Assembly: GCA_034717495.1 (NCBI GenBank)
Contig: JAYELL010000081.1
Span: 1-32,130 of the forward strand
DNA length: 32,130 nucleotides
DNA from: Chloroflexota bacterium
GTDB taxonomy: Bacteria > Chloroflexota > Anaerolineae > JAAEKA01
Direction of reading: 5' to 3'
This document shows positions 13,625-18,145 of the stretch, one piece after another (within the stretch, counting starts at the first letter, position 1; every line of letters starts with the position of its first letter). Under the pieces are notes generated by a model that made no database searches, had not been told where the DNA came from, and saw only the letters and a list, made by a program, of their open reading frames with translations. Position numbers and translations under genes: made by a program.

Positions 13625-13653
13625 TTGCCAAGCAACACCGATGTTGTTATAAT
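13625..13653 (+). promoter_or_regulatory. Strong sigma-70-type promoter before structured leader and scpB
   Basis: TTGCCA (13625-13630), 17-bp spacer, TATAAT (13648-13653): five of six and six of six matches. Predicted start is near 13660, leaving about 275 nt before the scpB start codon. Confidence 0.8.
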
Positions 13654-13938: not shown

Positions 13939-14568
13939 GTGACTGAAAACGCACATGGTGGCACTGAAACTACGTCTCCAGCGCTTGAAGAGCGTGCAGC
14001 TCTGATCGAAGCATTACTCTATGTTGCCCCAGGTCCAGTGACCGTTGAAAATCTGGCTGCGGCGCTGGAAGTGAACGGGAATCAGGTAGAGGAGGCGCTT
14101 CAGCTTCTGTCAGGTGCCCAGGAAAATCGGGGATTACAGATTCAACGCATAGGCTCCAGGGTGCAGTTGGTCACGTCACCTGACGCGGCCGTCTACATCG
14201 AACGCTTTCTGGGTCTCGACCTGCGAACGCGCCTTTCCCCGGCAGCCATGGAAACTTTGGCAATTATCGCCTACCGACAGCCGGTGACCCGTGCACATAT
14301 CGAAGAGCTGCGAGGTGTAAGCAGTGACGGTGTGCTGAGAACGTTGCTGCACCTTGGCCTGGTCGAACAAGGCGAGAGGCTGGAGCAAGCCGGGCGGCCC
14401 TTCCAGTACAGAACAACTTTCGATTTCCTGCAATATTTTGGCCTCAATTCGCTGGAATCGCTGCCCCCGTTGGGGATAACCGAAGCTGAAGATCGATTCG
14501 GTGAGGCCGAAGAACCGGAGCAGGGGGAAACAGCAGAAGGCGATACCCACTCACACGACCATTCATGA
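13939..14568 (+). CDS. scpB: ScpB, segregation and condensation protein
   Basis: A 209-residue kleisin-associated protein. Two winged-helix domains are visible. The first includes ALIEALLYVAPGPVTVENLAAAL (around residues 22-44). The second includes the family signature LSPAAMETLAIIAYRQPVTRAHIEELRGV and GRPFQYRTTFDFLQYFGL. ScpB dimerises on ScpA within the SMC-ScpAB complex, which loads near the origin and compacts and segregates chromosomes. Start is GTG with weak ribosome complementarity (GGTG, about 10 bases upstream), right after a hairpin-rich leader. The C-terminal ~30 residues are acidic and His-rich and vary in the family. scpA is not adjacent here, which is less common than a scpA-scpB pair. 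Confidence 0.94.
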   Translation: MTENAHGGTETTSPALEERAALIEALLYVAPGPVTVENLAAALEVNGNQVEEALQLLSGAQENRGLQIQRIGSRVQLVTSPDAAVYIERFLGLDLRTRLSPAAMETLAIIAYRQPVTRAHIEELRGVSSDGVLRTLLHLGLVEQGERLEQAGRPFQYRTTFDFLQYFGLNSLESLPPLGITEAEDRFGEAEEPEQGETAEGDTHSHDHS

Positions 14569-14615: not shown

Positions 14616-15638
14616 ATGGCAACCGACCTGTGGCAAATTCGGCGCAAGAAGCGTTATTCGCTCGATGAACTTTCCAAACGCTGCGGCATCCACCCGGGCC
14701 TTATCAAAGCCTACGAATTGGGCGAACGAACCATTCCGTTGGCAGACCTGGAAAAACTCGCCCTGGCGCTGGAGGTCGAATCGTGGGACATCAAGGAGTT
14801 GTCCGATCCCCCACCGCGAAACTCCAGCCGGTCCCAGCCCCAAGAGCCCCAAGAGCAGCAAGAGCAGCAAGAGCAGCAACAGCCTCCTGACGACGTACGC
14901 GGGCAGTCCCGCTACGACTCGTCGCCGAGCTACTCACGATACGCGAACGATATCAGCCAACCCTACGGCAGCAGCCGTCCGGGTTCCGGCAGTAGCGAGC
15001 GCCGATCCCACGGAAGCGACCGCGAGCGCCAGGGTGGCTCGCGCTATGATTCGGGCTCTGGCAGCTACGACCGGAGACCTACCTACAACAACCGGGGTCG
15101 CTCCCCTTCCAGGTCATCCCGCTCTGGATATCGTGACCGTCGCAGCCAGCCGCGCAAGAAGAGCCCGCGTCGCCAGAAGGCCGCACCAGCCCGGGCGACG
15201 CAGATCGAACACTTGAAGAAGTTGCTGGTCCGTCTTGATATGTCCGGAGACGATTTCATGCGCTTGGCAGGCAAGCCGCTTAGCTTGTTGACCCGCAAGG
15301 AAGCGGCTCATCTTCTGACGACCTGCCAGGATCTGCTGGCGACACGAAAGCCGCCCAAACCCAAGGGAAAGCGTCAGCGCCCATATCTGCCAGAGTCGGT
15401 GGACGAGCACGAACTGGTCTACTTGACGCAGGTGCAGATGGACAAACGAAATCTCAAGTTGACGCTCTTCAACGGCGAGCCGATGGAGGGAACTCTGCTC
15501 GGCTTCAGTCCCTACGCCTTGACATTAGCCACGCCAGAGGGACCGGAAGTCACAGTGCAAAAACTGGCAGTCGCGTATTACGCGGTTGATCCTGCACCGG
15601 CCGTGGAAGAGGATGAAGAGGACGGGGAATCAGCATGA
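14616..15638 (+). CDS. XRE-like HTH, disordered RS/RG-rich linker and Hfq/Sm-like domain fusion
   Basis: A 340-residue protein with four visible parts. Residues 5-60 are a Cro/C1-type HTH (RRKKRYSLDELSKRCGIHPGLIKAYELGER). Residues 62-190 are low complexity: a Q-E run, then Ser/Arg/Gly/Tyr-rich sequence likely to be disordered and RNA-binding. Residues 194-243 form a helical module (IEHLKKLLVRLDMSGDDF). Residues 265-325 resemble an Hfq Sm fold: KLTLFNGEPMEGTLLGF matches the Sm1 pattern (LvNGxxlxGxIxxF), and TVQKLAVAYYAV sits where Hfq has YKHAIS. I infer a nucleic-acid-binding regulator, perhaps a riboregulator. ATG has GGGAG about 10 bases upstream. It lies 47 bases after scpB and overlaps the next gene by 4 bases. 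Not a family I can name. Confidence 0.75.
   Translation: MATDLWQIRRKKRYSLDELSKRCGIHPGLIKAYELGERTIPLADLEKLALALEVESWDIKELSDPPPRNSSRSQPQEPQEQQEQQEQQQPPDDVRGQSRYDSSPSYSRYANDISQPYGSSRPGSGSSERRSHGSDRERQGGSRYDSGSGSYDRRPTYNNRGRSPSRSSRSGYRDRRSQPRKKSPRRQKAAPARATQIEHLKKLLVRLDMSGDDFMRLAGKPLSLLTRKEAAHLLTTCQDLLATRKPPKPKGKRQRPYLPESVDEHELVYLTQVQMDKRNLKLTLFNGEPMEGTLLGFSPYALTLATPEGPEVTVQKLAVAYYAVDPAPAVEEDEEDGESA
14840..14880 (+). repeat. In-frame 9-bp coding repeat (Gln-Glu-Gln/Pro run)
   Basis: Four to five near-copies of CAAGAGCAG or CAAGAGCCC lie in tandem and in frame, encoding the QEP-QEQ-QEQ run at about residues 76-89 of the HTH-Sm protein. Such units can gain or lose copies without shifting the frame. 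Confidence 0.7.
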
Positions 15639-16105
15639 GTACAGGCGACTATGTTCGTTATTTACGGGCATTGAAGGGTGGACCGACTCCCTATGAGATG
15701 GAAAAAACCAGCGGGCTCTCTTCCAGCGTCTACCGGCAGATTGAGCAGCGCTACCGCTCCACTGGCAGTGAGGCAGACTTCACCATACTCGCCGAGTTCT
15801 TTGAGGTGCCTCTTGAAGAATTCACTGAACGGGACGCATGGAGCCGAAAGCGGCTGAGTTCATTCCTGGTTGACGCCATGGAGCAGCAAGTCCCGGTGCG
15901 TTTTGAACTCCGCTTCGGAGAGAGTATCTCCGGGACCGTAGTGTGGTCTGACCTTGGTGCCGTCATGGTTGCAGGGGAGGACAACCGCGACCTGGTCGTG
16001 CAGCGTCACATGATCGATCGGTGGGAAGCGCTGGGCGAGTTTCACCCGTCCGAAGAATTGAGCGAGGACGACAATCCGGAGGGTGAATGGCTGCCGGAAG
16101 CCTAA
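15635..16105 (+). CDS. Short HTH plus Hfq/Sm-like domain protein, paralogue of the upstream gene
   Basis: A 156-residue protein with the same plan as its upstream neighbour but without the long linker. Residues 5-62 form an XRE-like HTH (PTPYEMEKTSGLSSSVYRQIEQRY, then ILAEFFEVPLEEF). Residues 74-131 resemble an Hfq Sm core: VPVRFELRFGESISGTVV parallels the Hfq VpVsiyLvNGxxlxGxI pattern, and LVVQRHMIDRWE parallels the MVYKHAISTV segment that carries the Hfq His. The tail is acidic. The ATG overlaps the previous stop as ATGA, so the two proteins are made together and may form a hetero-oligomer. Function unknown; the Sm assignment is by pattern and needs structural confirmation. Confidence 0.72.
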   Translation: MSTGDYVRYLRALKGGPTPYEMEKTSGLSSSVYRQIEQRYRSTGSEADFTILAEFFEVPLEEFTERDAWSRKRLSSFLVDAMEQQVPVRFELRFGESISGTVVWSDLGAVMVAGEDNRDLVVQRHMIDRWEALGEFHPSEELSEDDNPEGEWLPEA

Positions 16106-16150
16106 ATGCGGTTCTGGTGACTTCCCCTCAGTAATCCTTGGATCGAAATG

Positions 16151-16207
16151 CCTTGACCCGGCGACGATTTGGTAGTTAAACCGTCGTTGGGTCAGGGTGT
16201 TTTTTTT
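16151..16207 (+). terminator. Rho-independent terminator of the scpB operon
   Basis: A long stem pairs CCTTGACCC-GCGACG (16151-16166) with CGTCG-TTGGGTCAGGG (16182-16197) with small mismatches, followed by TGT and a run of T residues to 16207. It lies 46 bases after the second HTH-Sm gene. Confidence 0.9.
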
Positions 16208-16756: not shown

Positions 16757-18145
16757 TTGCAAAACATTAGAGATTCTCTGCAAGCCATTGTAGCTCGGGA
16801 TGCGATCTCAGGCAAAGAGCCTGGCACCGCCGCCCGGGCAAAAACAGGTGCTTCACAAAAACGGATCAGCTGGCGGGCCATATTCGGTCTCGGCCTCATC
16901 TTCCTCATCATGGTTGTCCTCTTACAGGCCGATTGGCGCCCCCGGCGTTCGCCCCTCGACCGCGGCATCGATGCCCTGACCGACGGGCAACGATTCGACC
17001 TCGTCCGGTGGGAAGCCGAGGCAATCTCAGGCAAATTGACCAGCGTGTTTCGTAATTCAAACGAAGCACTAACTGAAGAAGAAGAACGCGCCCTGGTACG
17101 AGGCTATCTGGTCGACGCGCGGCGAATCGGCCAACTGGAAGATGCGATCGACGAGATTCTCAGTGATCCCCAGGGTGTCGATCCAATAGCAGCAACCGAG
17201 CAAGCCCGCGCTGAAGTTGCCGAACTTCGGGAACGCCTCGAGGAAAGAGCGACTGAGGTTGAGACGATTCTTGAGACGCAACTGGCCCGCGAGATAAGAG
17301 CCCTGGGCTTGACCACCGTCGGCACCGGTTGGCCACCTCCCAAGCTGAGCTTCACCGAGCCACCCAAGCTATTGGTTCTATCCCCCCGGGATCGCATTGA
17401 GCGAATCCGCTCAGTGGATCTGGTTTCCGACCTCGATAACACCGATCGGGAGACGCTGGAACAGGCGGTTGCTGAACAGTTTGACATGGTTGCCTATGTC
17501 ACCGGCATCGGCGGCTATGGCGCATGGCCTGCCATGATCGTAAACCGATTCGGTCTTCCCTGGACCACGGAGACTATCGCCCACGAGTGGGTGCACAATT
17601 ACCTTGCCTTTCATCCCCTGGGATGGTCCTTCCTGCAGGGTGGCGATGCGGTCACCATGAATGAGACAGTCGCCAGCATCGTGGGCGAGGAGTTGGGACT
17701 CGCGGTCATCGAAACCAATTATCCTGAACTCCTGCCTCCTCCACCTGTACCATCCGGTGAAGTGCCCGACCCGCAGGACGGGACAGAACCGGACGAGTTC
17801 GACTTTCGGCAGGAAATGAGGGCAACACGCCTGGTAGTCGATGAATTTTTGGCCCAGGGTCTCGTGGAGGAAGCGGAAGCCTTTATGGAGGCCAGGCGCC
17901 TGACTTTCGTCGAACATGGATACCCCTTGCGGGTACTGAACCAGGCATACTTTGCTTTCCACGGCAGCTACGGCACGAGTCCCGCGGCCACTGATCCCAT
18001 CGGCCCGAAGATGGAACGTCTTCGGCAGTTGAGTCCGTCGTTGCAGGCCTTTCTGCGCCTGGTGGACGGCCTGGTGGATCTGGAAGACCTGGACGCGGCC
18101 CTGGAGCGATTGGAGGGAACGGCCGGTGAGGATTCGGGAGCATGA
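16757..18145 (+). CDS. Membrane-anchored HExxH protein, putative metallopeptidase
   Basis: A 462-residue protein of no family I can name. Residues 41-58 form a single hydrophobic segment after a basic N-terminus, so it is an inner-membrane anchor with the bulk outside. Residues 100-180 are charged and probably coiled-coil. Residues 272-283 read ETIAHEWVHNYLAF, a zincin HExxH motif (H276, E277, H280); MNETVASIVGEELG (E303) could supply the third zinc ligand. The fold suggests a zinc peptidase, but activity is inferred. The start is uncertain: a TTG at 16757 is the first usable codon, only 25 bases from the divergent thioesterase start, with GGA about 9 bases upstream. The stop overlaps sfsA by 4 bases. 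Confidence 0.7.
   Translation: MQNIRDSLQAIVARDAISGKEPGTAARAKTGASQKRISWRAIFGLGLIFLIMVVLLQADWRPRRSPLDRGIDALTDGQRFDLVRWEAEAISGKLTSVFRNSNEALTEEEERALVRGYLVDARRIGQLEDAIDEILSDPQGVDPIAATEQARAEVAELRERLEERATEVETILETQLAREIRALGLTTVGTGWPPPKLSFTEPPKLLVLSPRDRIERIRSVDLVSDLDNTDRETLEQAVAEQFDMVAYVTGIGGYGAWPAMIVNRFGLPWTTETIAHEWVHNYLAFHPLGWSFLQGGDAVTMNETVASIVGEELGLAVIETNYPELLPPPPVPSGEVPDPQDGTEPDEFDFRQEMRATRLVVDEFLAQGLVEEAEAFMEARRLTFVEHGYPLRVLNQAYFAFHGSYGTSPAATDPIGPKMERLRQLSPSLQAFLRLVDGLVDLEDLDAALERLEGTAGEDSGA

Follow-up and report, generated by a model that had tools for sequence, protein, structure and literature searches.

Among bacterial proteins of the Sm fold, the best known is Hfq, a homo-hexameric RNA chaperone, for which the roles of individual residues (i.e., the RNA contacts on the distal face and rim) are established and in which the basic β4/β5 loops line the proximal pore. 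Hfq can also bind, bridge and compact DNA (PMC4417175), and the Hfq protein of cyanobacteria has the Sm fold, yet it does not serve as an RNA chaperone, its role being in pilus biogenesis together with the pilus motor (PMC10989914). The combination of the Sm fold with a helix-turn-helix (HTH) is already known from the PafBC/WYL regulators: PafB and PafC are two homologous HTH + Sm-fold proteins, encoded in one operon, which form a heterodimer, and the arginines of their β4/β5 loop are conserved and were singled out as functionally essential, likely marking a ligand site (PMC6789036).

In this study, a stretch of 32,130 nt from a Chloroflexota bacterium of the class Anaerolineae (contig with GenBank accession No. 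JAYELL010000081.1, positions 1 to 32,130; hereafter, the window) was analyzed. Genes 1 and 2 are genuine plus-strand ORFs and lie exactly where a sequence-only reading of this DNA had placed them (Table 1). The overlap claimed in that reading amounts to 4 nt (ATGA at 15635-15638), and the short Sm1- and Sm2-like words that it quoted are present in both proteins. Upstream of the two genes lies scpB, 47 nt before gene 1. Judging by its sequence, a candidate promoter upstream of scpB could possibly drive the scpB operon, with two promoter-like sites found versus 1.3 expected by chance, which is weak evidence. RNA folding revealed a hairpin behind gene 2, overlooked by the pattern scan for terminators, which is likely an intrinsic terminator ending the operon; both signals are consistent with an scpB-gene 1-gene 2 operon. 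Downstream of the pair there is a 462-aa ORF (16757-18145), conserved within the same family (e.g., in locus L065) and without a convincing Pfam match.

Table 1. Positions of the predicted features around the gene pair in the window.
Feature	Position	Strand	Remarks
Sigma-70-like promoter candidate, upstream of scpB	13625..13653	+	TTGCCA-17-TATAAT, 11/12, TG before -10
scpB, condensin subunit	13939..14568	+	PF04079, 3.7e-51
Gene 1	14616..15638	+	HTH-linker-helical-Sm protein, 340 aa
Gene 1 XRE-type HTH, residues ~5-61	14616..14798	+	HTH_3
Gene 1 basic low-complexity linker	14823..15182	+	Rich in S/R/Q/G/Y; its net charge is +11
Gene 1 conserved three-helix segment, residues ~194-245	15195..15350	+	PARxSQIxHL...GKPLxxLxRxEASxLL
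Gene 1 Sm/Hfq-like domain, residues ~260-326	15393..15593	+	Helix + five strands; invariant K316 at Hfq K56 position
Gene 2	15635..16105	+	HTH-Sm protein, 156 aa
Gene 2 XRE-like HTH with five helices, residues 3-69	15641..15841	+	XRE structures, best E 0.0036; family; model
Gene 2 Sm/Hfq-like domain, residues ~71-135	15845..16039	+	D106, R124, H125 at Hfq D40, K56, H57
Strong hairpin, then U run (likely terminator)	16145..16206	+	Folding: -36.3 kcal/mol, z -6.6

The HTH of the gene 1 window copy exceeds the curated Pfam cut-off for XRE/Cro-C1 membership (HTH_3, E 3.8e-8, 33.7 bits versus a cut-off of 23), and an HTH was detected in all 40 members of this family. The linker that follows varies in length across the family and carries a net positive charge in 39 of the 40 members, while the helical segment behind it, with its strongly conserved motif, gave no significant Pfam match. 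In the gene 2 protein, the C-terminal domain comes directly after the HTH. For the latter, Pfam gave no hit with the window copy, and support comes from the relatives (HTH_31 was found in 22/42 members), the matches to XRE structures and the AlphaFold model, which contains five helices. It is also worth mentioning that a gene 2 relative from a genome outside the class (L134:1114-1890, minus strand) bears a long Gly/Arg/Pro-rich repeat tail (YRPRPPGGG-like), whose Gly/Arg-rich composition resembles RGG-type RNA-binding tails.

Taken alone, neither window protein reaches the curated Hfq cut-offs (PF17209/TIGR02383). For gene 1, only sub-threshold scores were obtained (Hfq_1, E 0.012; Hfq, 13 versus 27 bits; TIGR02383, 11.3 versus 61.7), and gene 2 gave an equally sub-threshold Hfq_1 match (5.7e-5, 23.6 bits versus a cut-off of 27) and no listed match to Hfq. 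In the family-wide Pfam search, Hfq_1 matched 40/42 gene 2 proteins (best 1.7e-7), with some of these relatives exceeding its cut-off, and Hfq matched 14/40 gene 1 proteins (best 2.8e-6); when applied to whole genomes, the Pfam Hfq model fell on ORFs of the pair in about a dozen of them. Profiles built from about 40 relatives per gene and compared with PDB sequences retrieved as top matches the Hfq of B. subtilis (gene 1, 2.9e-5) and of Caulobacter (gene 2, 1.2e-6), and an hhalign comparison of the gene 1 and gene 2 families with each other gave a probability of 95.9. Template-free AlphaFold models, computed for monomers, had a mean pLDDT of 90.7 for gene 2 and 86.5 for the C-terminus of gene 1; both present the Sm-type order of a helix and five strands, i.e., the N-terminal helix and five-stranded barrel of the Hfq fold. 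Hfq chains were the best structural matches of both Sm models (Z about 12). A second structural comparison, which covered the Sm parts, listed no WYL structure; this does not count as evidence that such a match is absent. A tandem of HTH-Sm (Hfq-like) fusions, as originally proposed, is thus borne out by family profiles, models and fold search alike; the C-terminal domains, for which a non-Sm fold would have spoken against the proposal, both model as Sm, and we hold the HTH + Sm architecture of both proteins to be nearly certain.

With Hfq (PF17209) and Hfq_1 (PF21979, Asl2047/Ssr3341), the pair shares the Sm fold, the N-terminal helix, the conserved glycines of Sm1 and the basic residue at K56, to which gene 2 adds D40 and H57. 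The two proteins differ from both families in carrying an N-terminal HTH and in coming as an obligate pair, and from Hfq also in that the window copies score under the cut-offs and that both proteins have lost the residues by which its distal face and rim contact RNA. With the XRE/Cro-C1 regulators they have the N-terminal five-helix HTH in common, whereas their C-terminal domain is Sm/Hfq-like, which to our knowledge is not the usual partner of an XRE HTH. Like PafB/PafC and the WYL regulators, they combine an HTH with an Sm fold, are homologous to each other and are encoded side by side, but they have an XRE-type HTH, an Hfq-like Sm sequence and no WCX domain, and no WYL family was found among the Pfam matches of 82 pair proteins at E 0.01. 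PafB/PafC is the nearest working analogue, and the pair may likewise form a heteromer. The sequence-only reading knew of no described system of this kind. This stands for an Hfq-like domain on an XRE HTH as an obligate diverged pair, which was not found in the family databases and literature searched (subscription papers being mostly outside the coverage); it does not stand for Sm + HTH proteins in general, for which PafBC/WYL is a precedent.

Gene 2 was found along its length in 42 of the 298 class genomes (a 43rd gave a partial match), and the C-terminal domain of gene 1, as confirmed by profile search, in the same 42, which span 16 families according to the genome labels. Those relatives that have a name belong to the Caldilineales and Anaerolineae, and pairs of the same architecture occur outside the class, in families f95 and f127. 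In all 40 relatives examined, gene 1 precedes gene 2 on one strand, with an overlap of exactly 4 nt in 33. Computation shows the two genes to be an obligate unit, in most cases with translational coupling. The sole widely separated pair seen is that of L071 (reverse strand), where the genes lie 1.2 kb apart and are separated by what is presumably an alcohol dehydrogenase gene. A viral origin has no support, as a pattern scan of viral contigs yielded no relative, and a defence system was rejected on the outcome of PADLOC, in which gene 1 had only generic matches (HTH/control-protein) and gene 2 remained without a match.

Residues of 42 gene 2 and 40 gene 1 sequences were mapped on E. coli Hfq, the alignment being ungapped inside each motif. 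Gene 2 keeps G34, D40 (42/42), an arginine at K56 (42/42) and H57 (40/42); outside the class, two f95 genomes have Ser in place of this His. Gene 1 keeps G34 (39/40), K56 (40/40) and A58, and position I59 stays aliphatic; it has Gly or Ser at D40, so that the Sm1 Asp is absent (0/40), and Leu at H57 in 38/40. The two Sm domains have diverged in complementary ways, and the K-L (gene 1)/R-H (gene 2) pattern was seen again in the f127 pair. The Sm2 signature YKHA is present in neither protein, gene 1 reading Q/N-K-L-A and gene 2 Q-R-H-x. Neither the distal (Y25, I30, K31, Q33) nor the rim (R16, R17, R19) RNA-contact residues of Hfq are conserved in these sequences; what is kept is confined to the basic β4/β5 loop, with K in gene 1 and R-H in gene 2.

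The best explanation overall, on which we place about even confidence, is that the two proteins are subunits of one nucleic-acid-binding regulator. That the pair acts as a putative hetero-oligomeric DNA-binding regulator is probable. Its Sm domains would join one another through β4-β5 edge pairing of the kind found in Sm proteins. The resulting hetero-oligomer, possibly a ring of alternating subunits, would carry several HTHs that bind DNA multivalently; the basic β4/β5 loops of both subunits would bind RNA or a nucleotide ligand, tuning DNA binding, and the basic linker of subunit 1 may contribute extra nucleic-acid affinity. The regulator model is favored by the obligate pairing, the complementary conservation, the positive linker, the Gly/Arg-rich tail of the L134 relative and the loop arginines of PafBC, and it is weakened by the Sm domain of gene 1 lacking the Sm1 Asp, by the loss of the distal and rim residues and by the fact that Hfq_1, the closest standalone family, is no RNA binder. 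That the basic loop binds a putative ligand, either RNA or a nucleotide, is somewhat less likely than not. The earlier suggestion that such a regulator bridges promoters and RNAs goes further still: a two-subunit, hetero-oligomeric Sm ring with DNA-binding heads, coupling promoter and RNA binding so that transcription is regulated under RNA guidance or by RNA sensing where Hfq is missing from the genome, seems unlikely.

The strongest competitor is a heteromeric DNA-binding transcription factor in which the Sm domains are only modules for assembly and protein contacts and no RNA is bound. It is favored by the loss of the distal and rim residues, and the Pfam family that gene 2 matches best is the cyanobacterial, non-RNA-binding Hfq_1; as the cyanobacterial Hfq is no RNA chaperone and contacts the pilus motor (PMC10989914), RNA binding is not to be assumed. 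However, the invariant basic β4/β5 residues of both proteins, together with the positive linker, suggest a polyanion ligand, and we regard this alternative as a serious one, of lower probability than the model above.

The sequence-only reading had also set the pair in an scpB operon, and the synteny is real for roughly every second locus. Of 37 loci whose upstream sequence was usable, 19 have scpB upstream of the pair (16 of them within 300 nt); in the fetched flanks of the remaining 18 no scpB was found, and the pair stands beside varied genes. TldD/PmbA-like protease genes, as we read these sequences, adjoin the pair at L072, L073, L090, L092, and L099, which represent several families, and are a second recurrent neighbor. 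A strictly scpB-linked system is therefore rejected, and the pair itself is the conserved unit. The linkage, and the ability of Hfq to compact and bridge DNA (PMC4417175), by which a nucleoid role becomes possible, would suit a chromosome organizer acting with the ScpB condensin, in which an Sm scaffold would bridge DNA by means of its multivalent HTHs; the loci without scpB and the patchy spread (42/298), odd for a core chromosome factor, make this improbable.

That each protein forms its own homo-oligomer, and that gene 2 opposes or regulates gene 1 through competition for the same sites, could be imagined since both HTHs are XRE-like and either Sm domain could in principle self-assemble, but the invariant pairing and order and the common 4-nt overlap favor stoichiometric co-assembly, which leaves this option very little weight. 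The weakest proposal, a chance match of short words in domains of another fold, draws on the sub-threshold scores of the lone window proteins and is rejected, as family profiles, template-free models and fold searches all returned Hfq and the pair is conserved across the class genomes mentioned above.

The remark that canonical hfq is often missing in Chloroflexota was supported for the source genome, in which PF17209 gave no match at E 0.001, and 3/298 class genomes pass its cut-off. ProQ and CsrA were likewise without a match in the source genome, and since this genome is about 96% complete, the absence of these chaperones from it is likely genuine. Small standalone Hfq-like genes (74-87 aa) were observed in four genomes (L105:1489-1713, L117:1492-1722, L106:1489-1752, and L107:1489-1722, all on the minus strand), three of which pass the Hfq cut-off. 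The idea that the pair generally replaces Hfq throughout the class is not supported, since the majority of these genomes have neither.

Sm domains joined to an HTH (WYL) and Hfq itself were known already; what had no counterpart in the sources searched is an Hfq-like domain on an XRE HTH, in an obligate diverged pair. If the regulator model is true, a diverged pair of Sm subunits with DNA-binding heads would be a bacterial heteromeric Sm assembly, through which signals from RNA or nucleotides could be coupled to transcription in bacteria that are mostly without Hfq.
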